DNA of 64,000 bases from Klenkia brasiliensis (GTDB lineage Bacteria; Actinomycetota; Actinomycetes; Mycobacteriales; Geodermatophilaceae): assembly GCF_900100695.1 (NCBI RefSeq), contig NZ_FNCF01000007.1, positions 62,001 through 126,000 on the forward strand. The letters are read 5' to 3'. Both the position numbers and the translations under genes were made by a program. Shown here piece after piece: positions 2,458 through 64,000 of the stretch. The notes beneath the pieces are model-generated. The model saw only the letters and a program-made list of their open reading frames with translations. It made no database searches and was not told the DNA's origin. Position 1 is the first letter of the stretch; every line of letters begins with the position of its first letter.

Positions 2458-4011
2458 TTGATCACCACCGTGCTGCGGGGCGTGCGCGCGCTGCCGCCGG
2501 CGCTGCTGCGCGTCGTCGTCCCGGGGATCCGCCGGGTGGTGCCCGCCGACCGGGTGGTCGCCCCCGGCATCGCGCTGCTGGTGGTGGCGGCCAACGTCGT
2601 CGGTGCCGGAGTGGTCACCGTGCTGCTGCTGGGCGTCAACGGCGGCAGCGACGCGGAGTCCCCGACCGGCCGGCTGGTCACCGGCATCGTCGGCGCGGGC
2701 TACCTGCTGCTGGCGATCCCGGTCGGCGTCGTCCTCGGCCTGCACAAGCACCGCCGCACCAACCGGTGGCTGTGGGCCGGGCGCGCCCCCACCCCCGAGG
2801 AGGTCGTGCTGGCCCTGCGGATGCCCGGGGACGTCGCGAAGCTGGTGGCCTGGGTCTGGGCGGTGGCCGCGGTCGGGCTGGGCGTGGTGTCGGCCGCGGT
2901 CTACCCGCAGGCGCTGGTCGGGCTGCGGATCGGCATCTCCGTCGTCCTCGGCGGGGTGGTCACCGCCGGCGTCACCTACCTGCTGGTCGCCCGGGCCGCC
3001 CGGCACGTCACCGCCCGCGCGCTGGCCGCCCAGCCGCCCGACCAGCCCCGCACGCTCAGCGTCCGCCGCCGCCTGCTGCTCACCTGGGGCCTGACCAGCG
3101 GCGTGCCGATGCTGGGCCTGATCCTGCTGGTCATCGACCCGACCGGCCAGGGCACCCCGGGCCGCTTCACCGCCATCTTCCTGCCCGGCGTGGCGCTGGT
3201 CGTCGGCCTGCTCGCCACGCTGCTGCTGGCCCGCGGCGTCGGCACGCCGCTGCGCGAGCTGCGCCGCGCGGTGCAGCGCATCGGCGAGGGCGAGACCGAC
3301 GTCCGGGTGGTCGTCGACGACGCCGGGGAGATCGGGCTGCTGCAGAACGGCGTCAACACCATGGCCAGCGGGCTGGCCGAGCGGGAGCGGCTGCGCGACC
3401 TCTTCGGCCGGCACGTCGGCGCCGACGTCGCCGCCCGCGCCCTGTCCGACGGCGTCGAGCTGGGCGGGGAGACCCGCACGGTGGCCGCGCTGTTCGTCGA
3501 CGTCGCCGGCTCCACCGGGCTGGCCGAGCGGCTGGGCCCGCAGGAGATGGTCGGGCTGCTCAACCGGTTCTTCGCCGTCGTCGTCGACGCCACCTCCGCC
3601 GAGGGCGGGCTGGTCAACAAGTTCGAGGGCGATGCCGCGCTGTGCGTGTTCGGCGCGCCGCAGCCGCTGCCCGACGCGGCCGGTGCCGCGCTGCGGGCGG
3701 CGCGGGCGATCTGCACCGCGGTCGCCGCGGCCGGCGAGGTGGAGGTCGGCGTCGGGGTGGCGTGGGGGGACGTCGTCGCCGGCCAGATCGGGGCGGACAG
3801 CCGCTCGGAGTACACCGTCATCGGCGACGCGGTGAACACCGCCGCCCGGCTGACCGAGCTGGCCAAGGACCACGCCGGCCGTGCGGTGGCCAGCGACGCC
3901 GCCGTGCAGGCCGCCGACGCCGGCGAGCGCGTGCACTGGGTGGCCGGCGAGGAGGTCGTGCTGCGCGGCCGCTCCGAGCCGACCCGGCTGTGGGTGCTCG
4001 CCGGGGGATGA
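2458..4011 (+). CDS. Membrane-bound class III adenylate cyclase with HAMP domain
   Basis: A TTG start is chosen because GAGGG lies 4 bases upstream; an in-frame GTG at 2470 is the alternative. The N-terminal ~255 residues hold about six hydrophobic segments. A HAMP linker follows (GTPLRELRRAVQRIGEGE, about residues 258-310), then a class III catalytic domain from about 335 to 510. Metal-binding Asp residues are in ALFVDVAGSTG and NKFEGDAALCVFG. The transition-state Asn and Arg are in GDAVNTAARL. This six-helix-HAMP-cyclase layout matches the Rv3645/Rv1318c-type cyclases of mycobacteria. It should make cAMP from ATP at the inner membrane face. Its stop is 7 bases before the next gene, which suggests an operon. 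Confidence 0.88.
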   Translation: MITTVLRGVRALPPALLRVVVPGIRRVVPADRVVAPGIALLVVAANVVGAGVVTVLLLGVNGGSDAESPTGRLVTGIVGAGYLLLAIPVGVVLGLHKHRRTNRWLWAGRAPTPEEVVLALRMPGDVAKLVAWVWAVAAVGLGVVSAAVYPQALVGLRIGISVVLGGVVTAGVTYLLVARAARHVTARALAAQPPDQPRTLSVRRRLLLTWGLTSGVPMLGLILLVIDPTGQGTPGRFTAIFLPGVALVVGLLATLLLARGVGTPLRELRRAVQRIGEGETDVRVVVDDAGEIGLLQNGVNTMASGLAERERLRDLFGRHVGADVAARALSDGVELGGETRTVAALFVDVAGSTGLAERLGPQEMVGLLNRFFAVVVDATSAEGGLVNKFEGDAALCVFGAPQPLPDAAGAALRAARAICTAVAAAGEVEVGVGVAWGDVVAGQIGADSRSEYTVIGDAVNTAARLTELAKDHAGRAVASDAAVQAADAGERVHWVAGEEVVLRGRSEPTRLWVLAGG

Positions 4012-53892: not shown

Positions 53893-54831
53893 GTGAGCTC
53901 CACCGCAGCTGACCCGGTCCTGCCGCCCCCGGTCCTGACCGAGGTCGCCGACGGGGTGTTCGCCTACGTCCAGCCCGACGGCACCTGGTGGGTCAACAAC
54001 ACCGGTCTGCTGGTCGGCGCGCGGGGGGCCGCGGTGGTCGACACCTGCTCCACCGAGAAGCGCACCCGGGCGTTCCGGGACACGGTCGCCACGGTCACCG
54101 ACCAGCCGGTGCGCACCCTGGTCAACATCCACCACCACGGCGACCACACCCACGGCAACTGGCTGTTCGACGGTGCCACCGTGGTCGGTCACGAGGCCAC
54201 CCGCGACGGCGTGCTGGCCGCCGGGATCCCCGGCGAGCAGCCGTTCTGGACGCCGTTCGACATCGGGCGGGTCGTCCTGGAGCCGCCGTTCCTCACCTAC
54301 ACCGAGGGCGTCACGCTGTGGGTCGACGACCGGCGCTGCGAGGTCACCCACGTCGGCACGCCGGCGCACACCACGAACGACTCCGTGGTCTGGCTGCCCG
54401 AGCAGCGCACGCTGTTCGCCGGCGACCTGCTCTTCGCCGGCGGCACCCCGTTCCTGGTGATGGGTTCGCTGGCCGGGGCGATCGAGGTCCTCGAGGAGGT
54501 CGTCACCCCCCTCGGCGCGGAGACCGTCGTGCCCGGCCACGGCCCGGTGTCCGGCCCGGAGCTGGTCGACGACGTGCTGGGCTACCTGCGCTGGCTGGAC
54601 GGGGTCGCGCGCGACTCGCACGCCGCCGGGGTGTCACCCCTGGAAGCTGCGCGCAGCACCGACCTGGGGCCGTACGCCGGGTGGTCCGACGCGGAGCGCA
54701 TCGTCGGCAACCTGCACCGCGCGCACGCCGAGCTGTCCGGTGGCGAGCGCGGCTGCCAGATCGACGTCCGGGCGGCACTGGCCGACATGGTGACCTACAA
54801 CGGCGGTCACCCGCTGACCTGCATCGCCTGA
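53893..54831 (+). CDS. Metallo-beta-lactamase-fold hydrolase
   Basis: The product has 312 residues from GTG 53893, with GGAGG 12 bases upstream; ATG 53884 gives only three codons. The zinc ligands are in HHHGDHTHGN, GTPAHTTND, FAGDLLF and VPGHGPVSG, so both metal sites look complete. No signal peptide is visible. Members of this group hydrolyse thioesters, lactones or glutathione-type esters. In this catabolic island an ester- or lactone-opening role is plausible (inference). Operator D lies just upstream. Confidence 0.85.
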   Translation: MSSTAADPVLPPPVLTEVADGVFAYVQPDGTWWVNNTGLLVGARGAAVVDTCSTEKRTRAFRDTVATVTDQPVRTLVNIHHHGDHTHGNWLFDGATVVGHEATRDGVLAAGIPGEQPFWTPFDIGRVVLEPPFLTYTEGVTLWVDDRRCEVTHVGTPAHTTNDSVVWLPEQRTLFAGDLLFAGGTPFLVMGSLAGAIEVLEEVVTPLGAETVVPGHGPVSGPELVDDVLGYLRWLDGVARDSHAAGVSPLEAARSTDLGPYAGWSDAERIVGNLHRAHAELSGGERGCQIDVRAALADMVTYNGGHPLTCIA

Positions 54832-54917: not shown

Positions 54918-56060
54918 ATGCGCGACGCAGTGATCGTCGAAGCCGTGCGCACCCCCGTCGGCAAGCGCAACGGTGGCCTGTCCGGTGTCCACCCCGTCAC
55001 CCTGTCCGCGCACGTGCTGCGCGAGCTGGTGGCCCGTGCCGGGGTCGACCCCGCGCTGGTCGACGACGTGGTGTGGGGGTGCGTCTCCCAGATCGGTGAG
55101 CAGACCTACGACGTCGCCCGCAACGCGGTGCTGTCGGCCGGCTGGCCCGAGAGCGTCCCCGGCACCACCGTCGACCGGCAGTGCGGCTCATCCCAGCAGG
55201 CCGTGCACTTCGCCGCCGCGGGCCTGGTGGCCGGGCACTACGACGTCGTCGTCGCCGGCGGCGTGGAGTCGATGAGCCGGGTGCCCATGGGCTCCTCCGT
55301 CGCCGGTCAGAGCCCGCTGGACCAGGACTACCTGGACCGCTACGACGGCGTGGCCCCCAACCAGGGCGTGGGCGCCGAGCTGATCGCCGAGCACTGGGGC
55401 CTGTCGCGCACCCAGCTCGACGAGTTCGCGCTGCGTTCGCACGAGCGCGCCGCCGCTGCCCAGGACGAAGGCCGCTTCGAAGCCCAGCTCGCCCCGGTCG
55501 ACACCCCCGACGGCCGGGTCGCCGTCGACGAGGGCGTGCGGCGGGGTGGCACCGTGGAGGGCCTGGCCGGGCTGAAGACCCCGTTCAAGGCCGACGGTGT
55601 GGTGTCGGCCGGGAACGCCAGTCAGATCTCCGACGGCTCGGCCGCCCTGCTGATGATGACCAGCGAGAAGGCCGCGGCCCTCGGCCTGACCCCGATCGCC
55701 CGCGTGCACAGCGTCGCCCTGGCCGGCGACGACCCGGTCAAGATGCTCACCGCGCCCATCCCGGCCACCAAGAAGGTGCTCGACCGCTCCGGCCTGCGGC
55801 TGGACGAGATCGGCGTCTTCGAGATCAACGAGGCCTTCGCCCCCGTGCCGCTGGCCTGGCAGGCCGAGATCGGCGGTGACGAGAAGCTGCTCAACCCGGT
55901 GGGCGGGGCCATCGCGCTGGGTCACCCGCTGGGCGGCTCCGGCGCCCGCATCATGACCACGATGGTCCACCACATGCGCGACAACGGGATCCGCTACGGC
56001 CTGCAGTCGATGTGCGAGGGCGGCGGCCAGGCCAACGCCACCATCCTCGAGCTGCTCTAG
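54918..56060 (+). CDS. Acetyl-CoA C-acyltransferase (thiolase)
   Basis: The protein has 380 residues with GAGAGGAG before the ATG. The nucleophilic Cys is in DRQCGSSQQAV (about residue 90), followed by NPVGGAIALGHPLGGSGAR with the catalytic His and CEGGGQAN with the second Cys. It cleaves 3-ketoacyl-CoA to acetyl-CoA plus a shortened acyl-CoA, and the sequence style matches degradative thiolases. Its stop overlaps that of the convergent ligase-esterase gene. It probably shares the transcript of the MBL gene, 86 bases upstream. Confidence 0.92.
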   Translation: MRDAVIVEAVRTPVGKRNGGLSGVHPVTLSAHVLRELVARAGVDPALVDDVVWGCVSQIGEQTYDVARNAVLSAGWPESVPGTTVDRQCGSSQQAVHFAAAGLVAGHYDVVVAGGVESMSRVPMGSSVAGQSPLDQDYLDRYDGVAPNQGVGAELIAEHWGLSRTQLDEFALRSHERAAAAQDEGRFEAQLAPVDTPDGRVAVDEGVRRGGTVEGLAGLKTPFKADGVVSAGNASQISDGSAALLMMTSEKAAALGLTPIARVHSVALAGDDPVKMLTAPIPATKKVLDRSGLRLDEIGVFEINEAFAPVPLAWQAEIGGDEKLLNPVGGAIALGHPLGGSGARIMTTMVHHMRDNGIRYGLQSMCEGGGQANATILELL

Positions 56061-58480
56061 CGCTGCACCCGGCGGGCCAGGTCGGCGGTGAGCTCGTCGG
56101 CCTGGCCCAGGGCCCTGGACAGCCACCAGAAACCGTGGACGGCGCCCGGGTACTCGACCAGCTCGACCGGTACCCCGGCCTCGCGCAGCCGCGCCGCGTA
56201 GGCCCTGCCCTCGTCGCGCAGCGGGTCGAGCTCGGCGACCACGACCGTGGTCGGCGGCAGGCCGGCCAGGTCGTCGGCCAGCAGCGGTGCGGACAGCGGG
56301 CCCGGCTCGGCGCCGGCCAGGTAGAGGTCCCAGAACCAGTCGAGCTCGCGGCGGGTCATGAACGGTCCGTCCGCCCGCGCGAGCATCGACGGGGTGTCCG
56401 TGGGCGGTGCGAGCGTCGGGTAGACGAGCAGCTGCGCGGCCGGCAGCGTTCCCCCGTCGTCCCGGAGCAGCGTGGAGACGGCTGCGGCCAGGGCCCCACC
56501 GGCGGAGTCCCCGAGCAGCACCAGCCGGTCCCCGAGGTCCCGCGCCCACCGGACGGCGGCCAGGCAGTCGTGCACGGGGCCCGGGAACGGCGACTCCGGG
56601 GCGAGCCGGTAGGCGACCGAGACCACGGTCGCACCCGAGGCGGCGGCCAGCGCCCGGCAGGGGCGGTCCACGACCTCGAGGTCACCGAGGACGAACCCGC
56701 CGCCGTGCAGGTAGACCAGCACGGTGCCGGTGGTCCCCGGGTAGACCCGGGCCGGGAAGCCGAGGTCGACGTCGTAGGTGCCGGCCACGTCCGGGGCGGG
56801 CCGTTGCAGGCGGATGGCGCCGCGCACCTGGTCGCGGGCCGCGGCCACCCCCACCCGGTCGTATGTCTGCACCCCGGCGGTGGCGAACTTCTCGACCAGG
56901 GCCTGCACGTCGGGGCGCAGCCGCACCTGCTGCCGCAGCACGTTCTTCTGCACCTTGCCGGTCGGCGTGCGCGGCAGGTCCCCGACCAGCACCAACGACT
57001 CCGGGTACTTCTGCTTCGCGATCCCGAGCCCGTCCAGGAACGCCGTCAGCGACTCCAGGGTCACGGTGGCACCGGGCCGGGGGACGACGACCGCGCAGCC
57101 ACGTTCGGTCAGCACCGGGTCGGGCACCGCCACCACGGCGACGTCGGCGACGTCCGGGTGCCGGTAGAGGTGGTCCTCGACCTCCTTCGCGCTGATGTTC
57201 TCCCCGCCGCGCAGGATGAGGTCCTTGCTGCGGCCGGTGACGGTCAGGAACCCGGCGTCGTCGACCCGGCCCAGGTCGCCGGTGGCGAACCAGCCCTCGG
57301 CATCCACCACGTCCCGGTCCAGCCCGTGGTAGCCCAGGAACATCTCCGGTGCCCGGGCCCGCAGGTGACCCACCGTGCCCGGCGGCACCTCGCGCTCCTC
57401 GTCGTCGACGACCCGCAGCTCCCCGAGACCGACCACCCGGCCGTCGGTGTCGGCGCGCAGGTCGGCCGGGTCGTCGGCGTGGCCGGCGGTGACGGTCGGG
57501 ATCTCGGTCGACCCGTAGACCCGGACCACGGTGCAGTCCAGCTCCCGGGTGGCCTCGCGGACCAGCTCGGGCGGGACGTCGGCGCCCCCGCAGCCGAACA
57601 CCCGCAGCGTCGAGGTGGCCGGCCGGGCGGGCGAGTGGGTGAGCCCGTGCAGGAACGGGGTCGCCGCGACGGTGACCGTGCACCCCTCCGCCGTGATCAG
57701 CGACCAGCCGCGCTCGGGCGACCAGACGTCGCAGAACACGACGGCGGTGCCCAGCAGCGAGGCCAGGTGGAAGCCGTAGAGCACCCCGGTGACGTGCGCG
57801 ACCGGAGAGGCCGACAGCACGACGTCGGAGGCGGTGAGCTGCAGGTGGGTCACCATGCTGCGGTCCTCGTGGCCGAGCGTGTCGTGGCTGTGCACCGCGC
57901 CCTTGGGGTCGCTCTCCGTGCCCGAGGTGTAGAGGAGGCACACCGGGTCCCCGCTGCTGCGCCCGGGTTCCGCGTGCCCGCCGTCGGCGGTGGAGAGCAG
58001 GTCGTCGAAGTCGCCACCGCGAGCCACGACGACGTGCTCGAGAGCTGGGCAGACCGGCCGCAGCCGCTCGGCGAGGGCCGTGTGGTCGTGTCCACGGAAC
58101 ACCCCGGGGACGACGAGGACCCGCGCACCGCCCGAGCGCAGCGCGAACGTCATCTCCGCATCGCGCAGGATCGGCATGAGCGGGTTGCTCACCGCACCCA
58201 GCCGGATGGTGGCCAGGTGCACGACCAGCGCCTCCCACCAGTTGGGCAGCTGCTGGGCCACCACGTCGCCGGGGCCCACGCCGAGCCGGCGCAGACCCGC
58301 CGTGCAGCGGACCACCCGGTCGGCCAGCTCGGCGTAGGTGAGCCGGACATCGGCGTCGACCACGGCCAGCCGGGCGGGGTCGGCGGCGTCCACCCAGGCG
58401 TCGAGCAGGGTGCCGTCCCAGGCGCCGGCGGCCGTCCACCGCTCCCGCGCGGCGGGGGTGGCCTGCGGGAACGCCGTCAC
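56057..58480 (-). CDS. Fusion protein: acyl/acid-CoA ligase plus HSL-family esterase
   Basis: One uninterrupted frame of 807 residues carries two complete enzymes. Residues 1-~515 are an ANL-family ligase with P-loop LLYTSGTESDPKG (184-194), RVYGSTEIPT, GWFATGDLGRVDDAGFL, RSKDLILRGGENISAKEVED and catalytic Lys ~509 in RTPTGK. After a linker, residues ~560-807 are a hormone-sensitive-lipase-type hydrolase: YLHGGGF (about 591-597), nucleophile Ser ~659 in GDSAGG, Asp ~752 in ELDPLRDEG and His ~782 in GAVHGF. Both active sites look intact. In a BVMO operon the likely work is ester or lactone opening and CoA activation of the freed acid. Start ATG overlaps the upstream ligase stop. Confidence 0.88.
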   Translation of the reverse strand: MTAFPQATPAARERWTAAGAWDGTLLDAWVDAADPARLAVVDADVRLTYAELADRVVRCTAGLRRLGVGPGDVVAQQLPNWWEALVVHLATIRLGAVSNPLMPILRDAEMTFALRSGGARVLVVPGVFRGHDHTALAERLRPVCPALEHVVVARGGDFDDLLSTADGGHAEPGRSSGDPVCLLYTSGTESDPKGAVHSHDTLGHEDRSMVTHLQLTASDVVLSASPVAHVTGVLYGFHLASLLGTAVVFCDVWSPERGWSLITAEGCTVTVAATPFLHGLTHSPARPATSTLRVFGCGGADVPPELVREATRELDCTVVRVYGSTEIPTVTAGHADDPADLRADTDGRVVGLGELRVVDDEEREVPPGTVGHLRARAPEMFLGYHGLDRDVVDAEGWFATGDLGRVDDAGFLTVTGRSKDLILRGGENISAKEVEDHLYRHPDVADVAVVAVPDPVLTERGCAVVVPRPGATVTLESLTAFLDGLGIAKQKYPESLVLVGDLPRTPTGKVQKNVLRQQVRLRPDVQALVEKFATAGVQTYDRVGVAAARDQVRGAIRLQRPAPDVAGTYDVDLGFPARVYPGTTGTVLVYLHGGGFVLGDLEVVDRPCRALAAASGATVVSVAYRLAPESPFPGPVHDCLAAVRWARDLGDRLVLLGDSAGGALAAAVSTLLRDDGGTLPAAQLLVYPTLAPPTDTPSMLARADGPFMTRRELDWFWDLYLAGAEPGPLSAPLLADDLAGLPPTTVVVAELDPLRDEGRAYAARLREAGVPVELVEYPGAVHGFWWLSRALGQADELTADLARRVQR

Positions 58481-60195
58481 GACGGGAGCAGGGTCTGCCG
58501 GGCGCGCTCGGCGAGCAGGAACTTGCGGGGCCGACCGGACGGCGTCAGCGGGATCTGGGCCGGGTCGATGGCCAGCACGTGCCGGGGCACCTTGAACCGG
58601 GCCAGCTGCGGGGCCGCCCAGGCCAGCACCTGCGCGGCATCCAGCTCTGCGCCGGGGGCGAGCACGACCCAGGCCACCCCGACCTCGCCCATCCGCTCGT
58701 CGGGCAACGGGACGACGTGGGCCTGCGCGATCGACGGGTGCGCGGCCAGCACCACCTCGACGTCCCCGGGCACGACCTGCTCGCCGCCGCAGCGGTAGCA
58801 GTCCTTCACCCGGCCGGCCAGCCGCAGCCAGCCGTCGGCGTCGACCGAGCCCAGGTCACCGGTGCGCAGCCAGCCGTCGGCGGTGAAGGTGGTGGCGTCG
58901 GCGGCAGGGTTCTCGAAGTATCCGTCGATGACGCCCGGCCCGCGGGCCAGCAGTTCGCCCACGGCGCCGGGCTCGAGCGCCGCACCGGTGACGGGGTCGG
59001 CGGTCCGGTAGACCACCAGCTGGCGGTCGAGGTCGGGGTCACCGGCGATGCCGGCGTCCCGGACCCGGCCGTTCGTCGTGCGGCGCCGGTCCGGGTCGTC
59101 CTCCGGGCGGGTGCAGGTGGTCGAGGCCGTGGTCTCGCTCTGCCCGTAGCCGGTGACCACCTCGACCCCGCCGCAGACCGCACCGAACACGTCGTCGATC
59201 GCGTCCCAGATGCCGGCGGGGGACACCCCTCCCGAGGAGAACAGGTGGGTGAGCGAGGAGAGGTCGTGCTCGTGGGCCCGCAGCTCGGCCAGCACCCCCA
59301 GGGTCATGGTGGGGATCAGCAGCGCGTCGGTGCAGCGGTGCGCCTGGATCGCGACCACCGTGGCGGCCGGGTCGAAGACCAGCTGCGGCACGATCGCCCC
59401 GCCGACGAACGGCACGGTGAGCAGGCCCTCGACGAAGCCGTAGACGTGGTACATCGGCAGCGAGAACGTGATCCGGTGCCCGTCGGCGAAGGCCCGGCCG
59501 AGCACGCTGGAGTACGCCGCCCGCAGCAGCATGTCGTGGGTCAGCGGCACACCCTTCGGCTCGCCGGTGGTGCCCGAGGTGAACAGCAGCACGGCGGGCG
59601 CGTGCGGGTCGCCGACGGGCTCGTCGACCAGCGGGTCGAGGTCGGCGAGCGCGGCCAGCGTCGTCGTCCCCGGGCGGGCCGGGGCCTGCCCGGTCTCCAC
59701 GACCACCACCGAGCGCAGCTCGGGCAGGGCCTCGCCCCCGCCGGCGGTCTCCCACCCCGGCGCCAGCTCGTCGAGCACCGCCAGGTGGTCGGTGCCGCGG
59801 AACGCGTCCATCACCACGAGGGCGACCGCGTGCGAGCGGCGCAGGATGAACCCCAGCTCCGCCGTCCGGACCAGGAAGTTCACCGGCACCGCAGTGGCGC
59901 CCAGCCGGCTGAGCGCGTACGTGACCACGGGGAACTCGGCGTAGTTGGCCAGCAGGACGGCCACGTGGTCCCCGGCGCGCACCCCCAGCCCACGCAGGCC
60001 GGCAGCCAACCGGCGGGAGCGGTCGACGGTCTCGCCGTAGCTCCAGGACGCCCGGTCGGTGATGACCAAGGGACGTTCGGGGAAGGACCCGGCCGCGTGG
60101 TCGACCGCTCCGGACAGCGTGCGCGGTACCCAGACCGGGTGCCGTTGCTCCAGCAGGGCCCGCCGGGCAGCGGGGGCGAGCGGGTGGGCGGTCAC
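58477..60195 (-). CDS. Acyl-CoA synthetase (FadD family)
   Basis: The product has 572 residues from GTG 60195, which overlaps the monooxygenase stop (GTGA). Motifs are VLLFTSGTTGEPKGVPLTHD, VVTGYGQSETTAS, GWLRTGDLGSVDADGWL, RVKDCYRCGGEQVVPGDVE and TPSGRPRKFLL. The last has Arg-Pro-Arg-Lys where most FadD proteins have GKxxK; the first Lys of the A10 motif is replaced by Arg and a later Lys (RKFLL) is present. Whether the adenylation step is normal deserves attention. It lies between BVMO and the ligase-esterase fusion in one coupled operon. Confidence 0.87.
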   Translation of the reverse strand: MTAHPLAPAARRALLEQRHPVWVPRTLSGAVDHAAGSFPERPLVITDRASWSYGETVDRSRRLAAGLRGLGVRAGDHVAVLLANYAEFPVVTYALSRLGATAVPVNFLVRTAELGFILRRSHAVALVVMDAFRGTDHLAVLDELAPGWETAGGGEALPELRSVVVVETGQAPARPGTTTLAALADLDPLVDEPVGDPHAPAVLLFTSGTTGEPKGVPLTHDMLLRAAYSSVLGRAFADGHRITFSLPMYHVYGFVEGLLTVPFVGGAIVPQLVFDPAATVVAIQAHRCTDALLIPTMTLGVLAELRAHEHDLSSLTHLFSSGGVSPAGIWDAIDDVFGAVCGGVEVVTGYGQSETTASTTCTRPEDDPDRRRTTNGRVRDAGIAGDPDLDRQLVVYRTADPVTGAALEPGAVGELLARGPGVIDGYFENPAADATTFTADGWLRTGDLGSVDADGWLRLAGRVKDCYRCGGEQVVPGDVEVVLAAHPSIAQAHVVPLPDERMGEVGVAWVVLAPGAELDAAQVLAWAAPQLARFKVPRHVLAIDPAQIPLTPSGRPRKFLLAERARQTLLPS

Positions 60196-61787
60196 CGGGC
60201 CGACGCCGTCATGGTGAAGCCGTCGTAGTCGTCGGCCACCACCCGCTCGAGGATGCGCTTGTAGCCCCGGACGCCGCCGACGTAGGGGGTGAACACCCGT
60301 GGCTTGCCGGGGACGTCGTCGCCCATGTAGTAGCTGCGCGCCCGCGGGTAGAGGGTGGCCTCGGCCCGTTCGTTGACGTGCGCCACCCAGCCGCTCTCGG
60401 CCTCCGGGGTCACCTGCACGACACCGGCGCCTCGGGCCGCCGCCGCGTCGAGCAGGTCGGCGATCCAGTCCACGTGCTGCTCGATGCTCAGCAGCACGTT
60501 CGACAGCAGCGACGGGCTGCCCGGACCGGCGACCAGGAACATGTTCGGGAACCCGGCGACCTGCAGGCCCAGGTAGGTGCGCGGCCCGGCGGCCCACGCC
60601 TCGCGCAGGGTCTGCCCGTCCCGGCCGACGATCTCGGGCTTGAGCAGCGCACCGGTCATCGCGTCGAACCCGGTGGCGAAGACGACGACGTCGAGCTCGA
60701 TCTCCCGCTCCGCGGTCTGCAGGCCCCGCTCGGTGAAGCCGGTGACCGGGGTGTCCCGGACGTCGACCAGCTCCACGTCGTCGCGGTTGAAGGTCTCGAA
60801 GTAGCCGGAGTCGACCGGTGGCCGTTTCGCGCCGAACGGGTAGCCCTGCGGCAGCAGGTGCGGCAGCAGCTCGGGCTTGGTCACCTTGGCGGCGATCCGC
60901 TCGCGCACGTAGTCGGCGACCGTGTCGTTGGCGCGCTCGTCCAGCATCAGGTCCCGGTAGCTGAGCAGGAACCCGAACCCGGTGGTGGGCCACTGCTCGT
61001 CGTAGTGCCGGCGCCGCTCCTCGGGGGTGACCTCCAGCGCCGACTGGCGCACGACCGGGAAGCTCAGGCCGGTCGGGGAGTTACGGGCGGCCTCCCGGCG
61101 CTCGCGGTAGACCGCCTTGACCGCGGCGTCCTCCTCGTCGTCGACCGGTGCGTTGGTGGCCGGGATGGAGAAGTTGGGCGTGCGCTGGAAGACCGTCAGG
61201 TGGGCGGCCTGCTCGGCGACGACCGGCACCAGCTGGGTGCCCGAGGAGCCGGTGCCGATGACGCCGACCCGCTGCCCGGTCAGGTCGACGCCCTCGCGCG
61301 GCCAGCGGGCGGTGTGCAGCACGGTGCCGCGGTACCGGTCCTGGCCGGGGAGCTCGGGGTCCTTGGGGATGCTCAGCTGGCCCGTGGCCATGACGACGAA
61401 CCTGGCCCGCCAGGTGCCTGCGGAGGTCTCGACGTCCCAGCCGTCGTCGGCGAAGACCATCCGGGTGACCCGGGTGCGCAGGTGGACGTCGCGAGCCAGG
61501 TCGAAGCGCTCCACGACGTGGTCGATGTAGCGCAGGATCTCCGGCTGGGTGGCGTAGCGCTCGGTCCAGCGCCACTCCTGCTCCAGGTCGGGGTCGAAGC
61601 CGTAGGAGTAGTCGTGGCTGCGCACGTCGCAGCGCGCGCCCGGGTACCGGTTCCAGTGCCACACGCCGCCGATGCCGTCCCCGGCCTCGAGCACGGCGAC
61701 GCGGTACCCGCGTCCGCGCAGGGTGTGCAGCGCCCGCAGGCCGGCGAACCCGGCCCCCACCACGACGACGTCGACCTCGGTTGCCAT
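60192..61787 (-). CDS. Flavin-containing Baeyer-Villiger monooxygenase
   Basis: The protein has 531 residues from ATG 61787, chosen because it starts at the FAD fold (VVVVGAGFAG, 7-16). The BVMO fingerprint is present as YRGTVLHTARW (152-162; Tyr replaces the usual Phe). The NADPH Rossmann motif is GTGSSG (178-183), and VVFATGFDAMTGAL fits the family. It inserts oxygen next to a ketone using NADPH and O2, yielding an ester or lactone. Length fits cyclohexanone/steroid-type class B BVMOs. It is the first gene of a coupled operon with acyl-CoA ligases. The candidate operator E overlaps its putative -10 (GACAAT at 61815-61820). Confidence 0.92.
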   Translation of the reverse strand: MATEVDVVVVGAGFAGLRALHTLRGRGYRVAVLEAGDGIGGVWHWNRYPGARCDVRSHDYSYGFDPDLEQEWRWTERYATQPEILRYIDHVVERFDLARDVHLRTRVTRMVFADDGWDVETSAGTWRARFVVMATGQLSIPKDPELPGQDRYRGTVLHTARWPREGVDLTGQRVGVIGTGSSGTQLVPVVAEQAAHLTVFQRTPNFSIPATNAPVDDEEDAAVKAVYRERREAARNSPTGLSFPVVRQSALEVTPEERRRHYDEQWPTTGFGFLLSYRDLMLDERANDTVADYVRERIAAKVTKPELLPHLLPQGYPFGAKRPPVDSGYFETFNRDDVELVDVRDTPVTGFTERGLQTAEREIELDVVVFATGFDAMTGALLKPEIVGRDGQTLREAWAAGPRTYLGLQVAGFPNMFLVAGPGSPSLLSNVLLSIEQHVDWIADLLDAAAARGAGVVQVTPEAESGWVAHVNERAEATLYPRARSYYMGDDVPGKPRVFTPYVGGVRGYKRILERVVADDYDGFTMTASAR

Positions 61788-61814
61788 GCCTCGACTGTGG
61801 TCGTGGACACAGCC

Positions 61815-61839
61815 ATTGTCAACAACTACGTTGACCAAC
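61815..61839. promoter_or_regulatory. Operator-like palindrome E between BVMO operon and crotonase gene
   Basis: GTCAAC (61818-61823), six bases, then GTTGAC (61830-61835): the same core and spacing as site D at 53855-53872. Each half is itself part of a small palindrome (TTGT-ca-ACAA and GTTG-ac-CAAC). It overlaps a GACAAT -10 candidate for the BVMO operon and lies 35 bases before the crotonase start. Confidence 0.6.
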
Positions 61840-61870
61840 GACGGGTCGACGACGACGCAGGGAGACCGCA

Positions 61871-62794
61871 ATGGGCCGCAGGGTGACCAACCCCTCGATG
61901 CTGACCTACGAGAAGGAGGGCCGGATCGCCACGATGACGCTGAACCGGCCCGACCGGGGCAACGCGTTGTGCCGCCAGCTGCGCGACGAGATGGACGACG
62001 TCCTCGACGACCTCGACTCCGACGACGACACCCGGGTGCTGATCGTGGCCAGCAACGGGAAGAACTTCTGCACCGGCTACGACCTCTCGGAGTGGGGCTA
62101 CCTCTGGGGCACCGGTGAGCCCTCGCGCCCCGAGGACAGTCGCCCGCACCGTCGCGCCCCGATCTTCAGCCGCCGCGAGTTCCACGAGTCCCGCGAGCGC
62201 TGGATGCGGCTGTGGCGCATCCGGCAGGCCACGGTCGGCGTCGTGCGCGGGGCCTGCGTGGCCGGTGGCCTGGACCTGGCCGGTGTGCTGGACGTCGTGT
62301 TCGCCGCCGACGACGCGACCTTCGGCCAGCCCGAGGCCCGCACGATGGGGGAGATCCACACCTTCGGCATGTGGCCGGTGCACCTGGGCATGCGCAAGAC
62401 CAAGGAGTGGCTGTTCACCGGCGACTCGATGACCGGCACCGAGGCCGAGCAGCTCGGCCTGGTGAACAAGGCCGTGCCGGCCGACGAGGTGATGGCGGTG
62501 GCCCGGGCGTATGCCGAGCGGATCAGCCACGTGCCGCTGGAGATGCTCTACAGCCACAAGGAGGCGACCAACCGCTGGTGGGACGCCATGGGCATCGCCT
62601 CGGCGATCGCGGCGGCCAACGACGCCGACGCGATGGCGATCGCCGGGCCCTCGATGGCCGACTTCGAGCGCATCCAGCGGGCCGACGGCGTCCGCGCGGC
62701 GGTGGAGGACCGCGACGAGCCCTTCTCCCACCACCGCACGTACTGGGAGGCCTACCAGGCCGGCCGGGCGGCGGAGCGGGCCGACCGGGGATGA
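61871..62794 (+). CDS. Enoyl-CoA hydratase/isomerase family protein
   Basis: The product has 307 residues, somewhat long for a crotonase (about 260), with AGGGAGA before the ATG. The oxyanion-hole motifs are GKNFCTGYDLSEWG and RGACVAGGLDLAGVLDVV, and GQPEARTMGEIHTFGMWPVHLGMRKTKE forms the substrate loop. The insert after residue ~75 (WGTGEPSRPEDSRPHRRAPIF-like) and the C-terminal extension account for the length. It diverges from the BVMO operon across site E and ends in a strong terminator. Confidence 0.88.
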   Translation: MGRRVTNPSMLTYEKEGRIATMTLNRPDRGNALCRQLRDEMDDVLDDLDSDDDTRVLIVASNGKNFCTGYDLSEWGYLWGTGEPSRPEDSRPHRRAPIFSRREFHESRERWMRLWRIRQATVGVVRGACVAGGLDLAGVLDVVFAADDATFGQPEARTMGEIHTFGMWPVHLGMRKTKEWLFTGDSMTGTEAEQLGLVNKAVPADEVMAVARAYAERISHVPLEMLYSHKEATNRWWDAMGIASAIAAANDADAMAIAGPSMADFERIQRADGVRAAVEDRDEPFSHHRTYWEAYQAGRAAERADRG

Positions 62795-62844: not shown

Positions 62845-64000
62845 CTACAGCTGGATGGCCTTGGTCTCCAGGAACTCCTCGATGCCCGCGGCGCCGGCCT
62901 CCCGGCCCAGGCCCGACTGCTTGTACCCACCGAACGGCGCGGCCGTATCGAACGCCCCGCCGTTGACCTGGACCTGGCCGGCCTGCAGCTGCCGAGCCAC
63001 CCGCAGCGCCCGGTCGCGGTCACCGGACCACACGGCCGCGGCCAAGCCGTAGACGGTGTCGTTGGCGATGGACACCGCCTCGGCCTCGTCGCCGTAGGGC
63101 AGGATCGCCACGACCGGCCCGAAGATCTCCTCCCGGGCGATGGTCATGTCGTTGCGGACGTCGGAGAACACCGTCGGCTGCACGAACCAGCCGGTGTCGC
63201 GACCGGTGTCCAACCCGCCCGTGACCAGCGTGGCGCCCTCGTCGATGCCGGCCTGGATGTAGCCCCGCACCTTGTCGTGCTGCACCTTGCTCACGAGCGG
63301 GCCGATGACGGTGCCTTCCTCGTCCCAGGCCCCGATCGAGTAGGTGCCGGCGATCCGGGCGGCGATCTCCTCGGCCTCCGCCAACCGGTCGGCCGGCACG
63401 AGCACGCGGGTCAGGGCGGTGCATGCCTGCCCGCAGTTCAGCCCCACCGAGTTGGCGAAACCGCCGGCGATGGCCTCCTCGAGGTCGGCGTCGTCCAGGA
63501 CCACGTTGGCCGACTTGCCGCCCAGCTCCAGCGCCACCCGCTTGACCGACCCCGCGGCCACCTCGGCGATCCGCTTCCCGGCCCGCGTGGAGCCGGTGAA
63601 GGACACCATCGCGACGTCGGGGTGGGCGACCAGCGCCTCGCCGACGACCGGACCCACGCCGCTGACCAGGTTGAACACCCCGGCGGGCAGGCCGACCTCG
63701 TCCATGACACCGGCGATGGCGTGCACCAGCAGCGGAGCGACCTCGGAGGGCTTGACCACCACGGTGCAGCCGGCCGCGAACGCCGCCGCCACCTTCAGCG
63801 CCACCTGGTGGGCCGGGAAGTTCCATGGCGTGATGCAGCCGACGACCCCGATCGGCTCCTTCACCACCAGCGAGTTGCCCACCTCCTGCCCACCGAAGTC
63901 GTAGCTGCGGGCGAGGTCGGCGTAGAAGCCGAAGTTGAAGATCGGCAGGCCCAGCTGCACGAGCTTGGAGGCCTCGACCGGGCCGCCCACGTCGCGCGAG
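62845..64000 (-). CDS. Aldehyde dehydrogenase (5' end off the right edge)
   Basis: The visible 384 C-terminal residues include [43 protein letters not shown], the general base Glu in [17 protein letters not shown], the nucleophilic Cys in [16 protein letters not shown], and [13 protein letters not shown]. These are standard NAD(P)-dependent aldehyde dehydrogenase motifs. The frame stays open to the window end, and about 90 N-terminal residues are missing. In this island it could oxidise an aldehyde made from an ester or alcohol product of the BVMO route. Confidence 0.9.

Follow-up and report, generated by a model that had tools for sequence, protein, structure and literature searches.

A gene fusing an acyl-CoA ligase and an esterase next to a Baeyer-Villiger monooxygenase gene in Klenkia

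The main finding of this work is a gene in which an acyl-coenzyme A (CoA) ligase and an esterase are joined in one open reading frame, in a stretch of 64,000 nucleotides from Klenkia brasiliensis (contig NZ_FNCF01000007.1, positions 62,001 to 126,000; hereafter the window). Klenkia is a genus of soil bacteria in the Geodermatophilaceae. As judged from the sequence, the fusion is genuine and not a sequencing slip, since Klenkia soli DSM 45843 carries the same full-length frame. With a probability of roughly 0.6, we propose that it is a bifunctional protein formed, most simply once, within Klenkia, when a block of catabolic genes was relocated before an esterase gene, and that it would convert an ester to an acid and the acid to its CoA thioester. 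The gene and its parts are as follows.

56057-58480, minus strand: the fused gene of 807 codons, which begins with GTG and has its stop at 56057-56059; its K. soli orthologue is intact
56921-58480, minus strand: ligase part, residues 1-520, with AMP-binding and AMP-binding_C domains
56057-56920, minus strand: esterase part, residues 521-807, with an Abhydrolase_3 domain and the esterase's own N-terminal segment retained
56918-56923, minus strand: junction Arg520/Leu521, where the ligase end ...LRQQVR runs straight into LRPDVQ... and nothing is inserted as a linker

Domains and integrity of the fused frame

A preliminary description of this DNA had claimed an 807-codon frame with a complete ANL ligase and a complete HSL-type esterase, and the domain searches bear this out. 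The minus-strand frame at 56057-58480 contains no internal stop, and three Pfam domains score above their cut-offs: AMP-binding (PF00501) at residues 32-385 (57326-58387; 245.5 bits against 29.9), AMP-binding_C (PF13193) at residues 433-509 (56954-57184; 56.9 bits against 24.5) and Abhydrolase_3 (PF07859) at residues 588-785 (56126-56719; 230.5 bits against 25). Catalytic motifs were also found at the places proposed for them (184-194, ~509, ~592, ~659, ~752 and ~782). The ligase half carries YTSGT of the P-loop from residue 184 and PTGK at 506-509, whose last residue, Lys509, is the catalytic C-terminal lysine; the esterase half carries HGGG at 592 (oxyanion), GDSAGG at 657 (Ser659), DPLRDE at 752 (Asp752) and VHGF at 781 (His782). 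The catalytic roles of Lys509, Ser659, Asp752 and His782 are those that we presume from these motifs. By its domains and motifs the first half is thus classed as an ANL acyl-CoA ligase, for which acyl-CoA formation is predicted, and the second, by its family score, HGGG and Ser-Asp-His triad, as an HSL/Abhydrolase_3 esterase.

Closer names were considered for both halves and rejected. The NCBIfam model closest to the ligase half is cyclohexanecarboxylate-CoA ligase TIGR03208, but the fusion reaches 452.1 bits against a cut-off of 792.3; the closest to the esterase half is LipP1 (NF058653), a 300-position model without a ligase, which matches residues 523-804 with 273.1 bits against a cut-off of 350. 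Since both scores fall below the curated cut-offs, neither family name can be applied. An AlphaFold2 model built on 12 sequences reached a mean predicted local distance difference test (pLDDT) of 70.3 and a predicted template modelling score (pTM) of 0.54, and was weak for ligase residues 162-194, for residues 531-561 and for some parts of the esterase. In the fold search with this model, the best match was 5wm6 (target template modelling score 0.81) and the 50 solved matches listed were ANL-type or non-ribosomal peptide synthetase (NRPS) chains, a result that supports the ligase fold and offers nothing firm for the esterase or the interface.

An assembly error or a missed stop, with two genes actually present in the cell, has nothing in its favour at the sequence level, and we reject it as extremely improbable. 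A stop or frameshift near residues 520-560, which the preliminary description had named as a possible refutation, was looked for and none was found; the frame is open there, and equally so in K. soli. Hence the genome of the window (G000) is not a sole exception: that of K. soli, which we take to be our genome G002, encodes the same full-length fusion in an intact 810-codon frame, so that two assemblies share the frame in proteins that are 89% identical. In the window gene, the five measured segments have a third-position GC of 0.95-0.98 (0.98 over residues 500-590); across five segments of each of the two fusions it is 0.95-1.00, with 0.97 and 1.00 through residues 514-586, which also speaks against a missed stop. 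Between the two fusions, synonymous divergence is ~0.38 and the ratio of nonsynonymous to synonymous divergence is 0.15 for residues 1-385, 0.10 for 386-513, 0.29 for 514-586 and 0.20 for 587-807; read from the codons, purifying selection acts on both halves.

The junction and the two chromosomal sites

The genes around the fusion in the window are the following.

60192-61871, minus strand: Baeyer-Villiger monooxygenase (BVMO), 4-base overlap with ligase 2
58477-60195, minus strand: second acyl-CoA ligase (ligase 2), 572 aa, 4-base overlap with the fusion start
61871-62794, plus strand: enoyl-CoA hydratase/isomerase family gene (ECH), accompanying the operon at both sites
62845-63990, minus strand: aldehyde dehydrogenase (ALDH), 381 residues inside the window, a 514-aa frame beyond it (L060 11346-12890)
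54918-56060, plus strand: acetyl-CoA acyltransferase (thiolase) that belongs to the esterase's site and is convergent with the fusion
53893-54831, plus strand: metallo-beta-lactamase-fold hydrolase (MBL), resident of the esterase's site

BVMO, ligase 2 and the fusion follow one another on the minus strand, every pair overlapping by four bases, and because of these overlaps the row is read as an operon. The BVMO, whose nearest solved relatives are steroid monooxygenase and phenylacetone monooxygenase, thus lies upstream of the esterase in one row of overlapping minus-strand genes, as in a BVMO-esterase module. On the other side, the stops of the thiolase and of the fusion overlap by four bases at 56057-56060. 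The ALDH gene adjoins the operon in K. brasiliensis and is absent from that site in K. soli.

Both parts of the fusion occur as free proteins in other Klenkia genomes, the ligase in G003 and G006 and the esterase in G003, G005 and G006. The free ligase has 525 aa and its own stop and is 89% (G003) and 88% (G006) identical to the fused ligase, and the free esterase is 59% (G003), 78% (G005) and 68% (G006) identical to the fused esterase. The two parts belong to different sites. At a first site, G003 and G006 have the order ECH-BVMO-ligase 2-ligase, with the ligase last and a short-chain dehydrogenase/reductase (SDR) gene behind it. At a second site, G003, G005 and G006 have the order MBL-thiolase-esterase-BVMO2, where the free esterase lies between MBL-thiolase and another monooxygenase, BVMO2, which is 59-60% identical to the BVMO of the fusion operon. 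Both fused genomes have the block at the MBL-thiolase site, with a single BVMO match each at E 1e-150, and their first-site neighbours (hydantoinase, SDR and mechanosensitive channel genes) are present without the block. This synteny indicates that the site of the block varies between species and that the fusion accompanies its presence at the esterase's site. At the first site of G004, a ligase-2 homologue stands alone (L097 7420-9122), joined directly before the SDR gene and with no match there to the ligase or BVMO part; it is apparently a remnant of the block.

Comparison with the unfused counterparts places the junction to the codon. The unfused ligase ends in ...LRASVRNSPAG and a stop, whereas the fusion reads ...LRQQVR and continues with LRPDVQ..., and the free esterase of G005 begins with MRPDVQ, its ATG standing at the codon that matches Leu521. 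Relative to its unfused parents, the fusion therefore lacks the last five codons and the stop of the ligase and the start codon of the esterase. A separate added linker is rejected by the same comparison: the only connecting stretch is the N-terminal segment that the esterase itself contributes. The lost ligase tail, as it stands at the first site, resembles the sequence before the SDR gene in G000, G002 and G004, where the ligase is absent; in this comparison, made by eye over ~20 to 40 bases, the ligase end at the first site may tentatively be regarded as borrowed from its flank too. The two fused esterases have short loop deletions in common that are absent from the four free esterases aligned, in line with a single origin of the fusion. 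As to the free esterase of G006 (L027 ~3930-3960), inspection by eye of the 50 codons that precede the matched part showed neither ATG nor GTG, and a candidate start is a CTG that shares bases with the stop of an ALDH remnant (CTGA).

At the esterase's site, the nearest flanks of G000 and G005 are 95.7% and 95.8% identical, and the sequence further left is 90% identical. The intervening 8.4 kb differs in content, only the esterase (80%) and a BVMO (69%) matching. The near flanks of G000 are thus closest to the unfused G005, yet its esterase is nearer to that of G002 (84%) than to that of G005 (79%), so that the block may have moved within one lineage or may have been exchanged between species.

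Distribution of the fusion

The genome samples of family, order, phylum and class overlap one another, and the best 9 candidates per genome were scored for the family, the best 2 for the phylum and the order, and the best 5 for the class. A match over residues 1-807 was found in two of the nine Klenkia genomes (G000 and G002), at the same locus, while four of the nine (G001, G004, G007 and G008) gave no match at E 1e-100. Neither the 112 genomes of the family nor the 397 of the order contained the full-length fusion beyond these two, and among the 396 genomes of the phylum the only full-length match was the window's own genome. A junction query (residues 400-700) against 394 genomes of the class gave, among the matches listed, an unbroken match solely in the window's genome. 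Of 72,556 plasmid records, 58 had a match and none covered 80% of the fusion protein, and a contig scan of 84,980 species for close relatives gave 11 loci, one of them fused (K. soli). A distant fused protein could have escaped these searches, since the samples overlap and only the best candidates per genome were scored. Within the sampled genomes, then, the architecture appears to be very local: narrow, young and confined to Klenkia.

Outside Klenkia, 23 loci were scanned with tblastn (E 1e-8), and none of the 20 stretches bearing the ligase had an esterase match; a BVMO match was present in 8 of the 20 at this loose threshold. Because of this, the unfused arrangement is most likely ancestral. 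In G522, for instance, homologues of ALDH, BVMO, ligase 2 and ligase occur together (84, 64, 63 and 59%) with no esterase match. Several outside ligase matches extend past the ligase end, many of them across a stop; no esterase match was found behind the ligase in G778, G654, G681, G574 and G127, and such matches in G488, G632 and G676, among others, lay outside the locus comparison.

An esterase match was found in 3 of the 23 stretches (L019, L088 and L023), none of which had a ligase match. L019 and L088 are apparently the same contig of a metagenome-assembled genome (MAG), on which little sequence follows ligase 2 and the beginning of an SDR gene. In L019, from a Frankiales MAG, the esterase homologue (58%) is accompanied by ALDH (85%), a zinc alcohol dehydrogenase, BVMO (65%) and ligase 2 (60%). 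This homologue stands behind a TetR regulator in one 571-codon frame (L019:9215-10930, MAG RYN_157; TetR_N, TetR_C_24 and Abhydrolase_3), which may be another fusion, of a different kind, at this end of the esterase; it comes from a single MAG, and an indel in the assembly may also account for it. When plasmids were searched with the TetR-esterase protein, one record matched, in the TetR part only.

The preliminary description had looked to many independent genomes with the same order as support for its interpretation, a fusion that could hydrolyze an ester or lactone and activate the freed carboxylate, and so limit loss of the hydroxy-acid. What stands of it is the two complete domains in one chain and the adjoining BVMO gene; recurrence across many independent genomes does not, as the fusion is present at one locus in two Klenkia genomes. 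No report of such a ligase-esterase fusion was found in a literature search judged by titles and abstract openings, and the excerpted main text of a fusion survey (PMC4921024) contains none of the terms "CoA ligase", "CoA synthetase" and "esterase".

Proposed function, rival explanations and related systems

We infer the direction of the block's move, the single origin, the substrate and the order of reactions as follows. A block of four catabolic genes, namely ECH, BVMO, ligase 2 and the ligase, would have come directly in front of the esterase at another site, the one where other Klenkia have a different BVMO. With the break among the ligase's final codons and at the esterase's start codon, one frame would have resulted, with the esterase's N-terminal segment as sole linker. 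The most likely function of the fusion is to hydrolyze the ester made by the neighboring BVMO and to activate the freed acid with CoA. The BVMO would insert oxygen into a ketone to give an ester (or lactone), the esterase half would release the free carboxylic acid, and the ligase half would use ATP to form its CoA thioester; the alcohol half could be oxidized and then activated by ligase 2, and both products might enter beta-oxidation through ECH and thiolase. Since the module holds two ligases and an aldehyde dehydrogenase, an open-chain ketone, yielding an acid and an alcohol, would fit at least as well as a lactone substrate. That the fusion provides a handover from ester to acyl-CoA, with the ligase half capturing the acid before it escapes, after one rearrangement of parents that remain unfused in sister species, is a more specific proposal that we regard as unlikely.

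Several observations weigh against a bifunctional enzyme of this kind. The fusion is known from two species and a single locus, with no independent recurrence, and a conserved partnership of ligase and esterase is not demonstrated by the loci outside Klenkia, where esterase matches beside the ligase are lacking, as are ligase matches beside the esterase. At only 68% and 59% identity, the free esterases of G006 and G003 are rather distant from the fused one, and the free esterase adjoins a different BVMO, so that the two halves may act on different compounds. The pTM of 0.54 does not settle the domain arrangement. Each fusion also has in-frame GTG codons near the join; one of them, at residue 514 of the window protein and thus shortly ahead of the join, is common to both and occurs in the free ligase gene of G003 as well, so that some esterase may possibly also be made separately.

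The main rival explanation is a neutral read-through, in which the relocation joined the two frames by chance and both halves are active and separately selected while the link itself is idle. We consider it possible, if on the improbable side: the end-to-end splice without a new linker, the block at different sites in different species, the presence in only two of nine Klenkia and in no other sampled genome, and the ligase's terminal codons at the other site, which by eye are also flank-like, would all agree with it, but both known carriers retain the fusion at a synonymous divergence of ~0.38. This last argument is weak, because one shared event is possible. A very unlikely alternative gives the esterase half the role of a thioesterase or editing domain, which would clear the ligase half of acyl groups activated in error. 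Type II thioesterases remove such groups, and NRPS termination modules have the adenylation domain first and the alpha/beta hydrolase last, an order that the fusion resembles, with EntF and SrfA-C among the fold matches. Nevertheless, the hydrolase is of the Abhydrolase_3 family with HGGG and GDSAGG, Pfam at E 0.001 gives neither a carrier domain nor a thioesterase family for the fusion, and the free Klenkia relatives of the esterase adjoin BVMO genes.

If the halves of the proposed bifunctional enzyme do act in sequence, it would offer a natural template for turning BVMO esters or lactones into acyl-CoA. As an enzyme the fusion is less surprising than the preliminary description held; as a recent fusion event it is more informative. 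Fused and unfused versions exist within one genus, the junction is known to the codon and both sites of the parts are known, which makes a clean test of whether joining presumably consecutive catabolic enzymes pays or whether fusions begin as accidents of relocation.

Related systems are known. In Gordonia sp. TY-5, according to an excerpted account, the ester formed by the acetone BVMO is hydrolyzed by an esterase of the same operon, acmA/acmB (PMC6215540). AcmA/AcmB resemble the Klenkia module in pairing a BVMO with an esterase, but they are two separate proteins, with no ligase mentioned in that account, whereas the Klenkia esterase is fused to one. A route proposed for 2-ketones, as given in an excerpt, proceeds through BVMO, esterase, alcohol and aldehyde dehydrogenases and then beta-oxidation (PMC12753306). 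Compared with the known BVMO-esterase routes, the Klenkia module has two additional CoA ligases. Like the composite ("Rosetta stone") metabolic proteins, the fusion unites in one chain two enzymes that are separate in relatives; the difference is the AMP-binding and Abhydrolase_3 pair, which did not turn up in the titles and abstract openings of the literature search. Two gene clusters on Rhodococcus plasmids (L070 and L071) have a 50% identical ligase with an SMP-30/gluconolactonase gene directly behind it and, in the same stretch, a flavin oxidoreductase matching the BVMO at 36-38%; there the genes are separate and the hydrolase belongs to a family unrelated to the esterase. The order of ligase and hydrolase thus recurs on these plasmids with an unrelated hydrolase.

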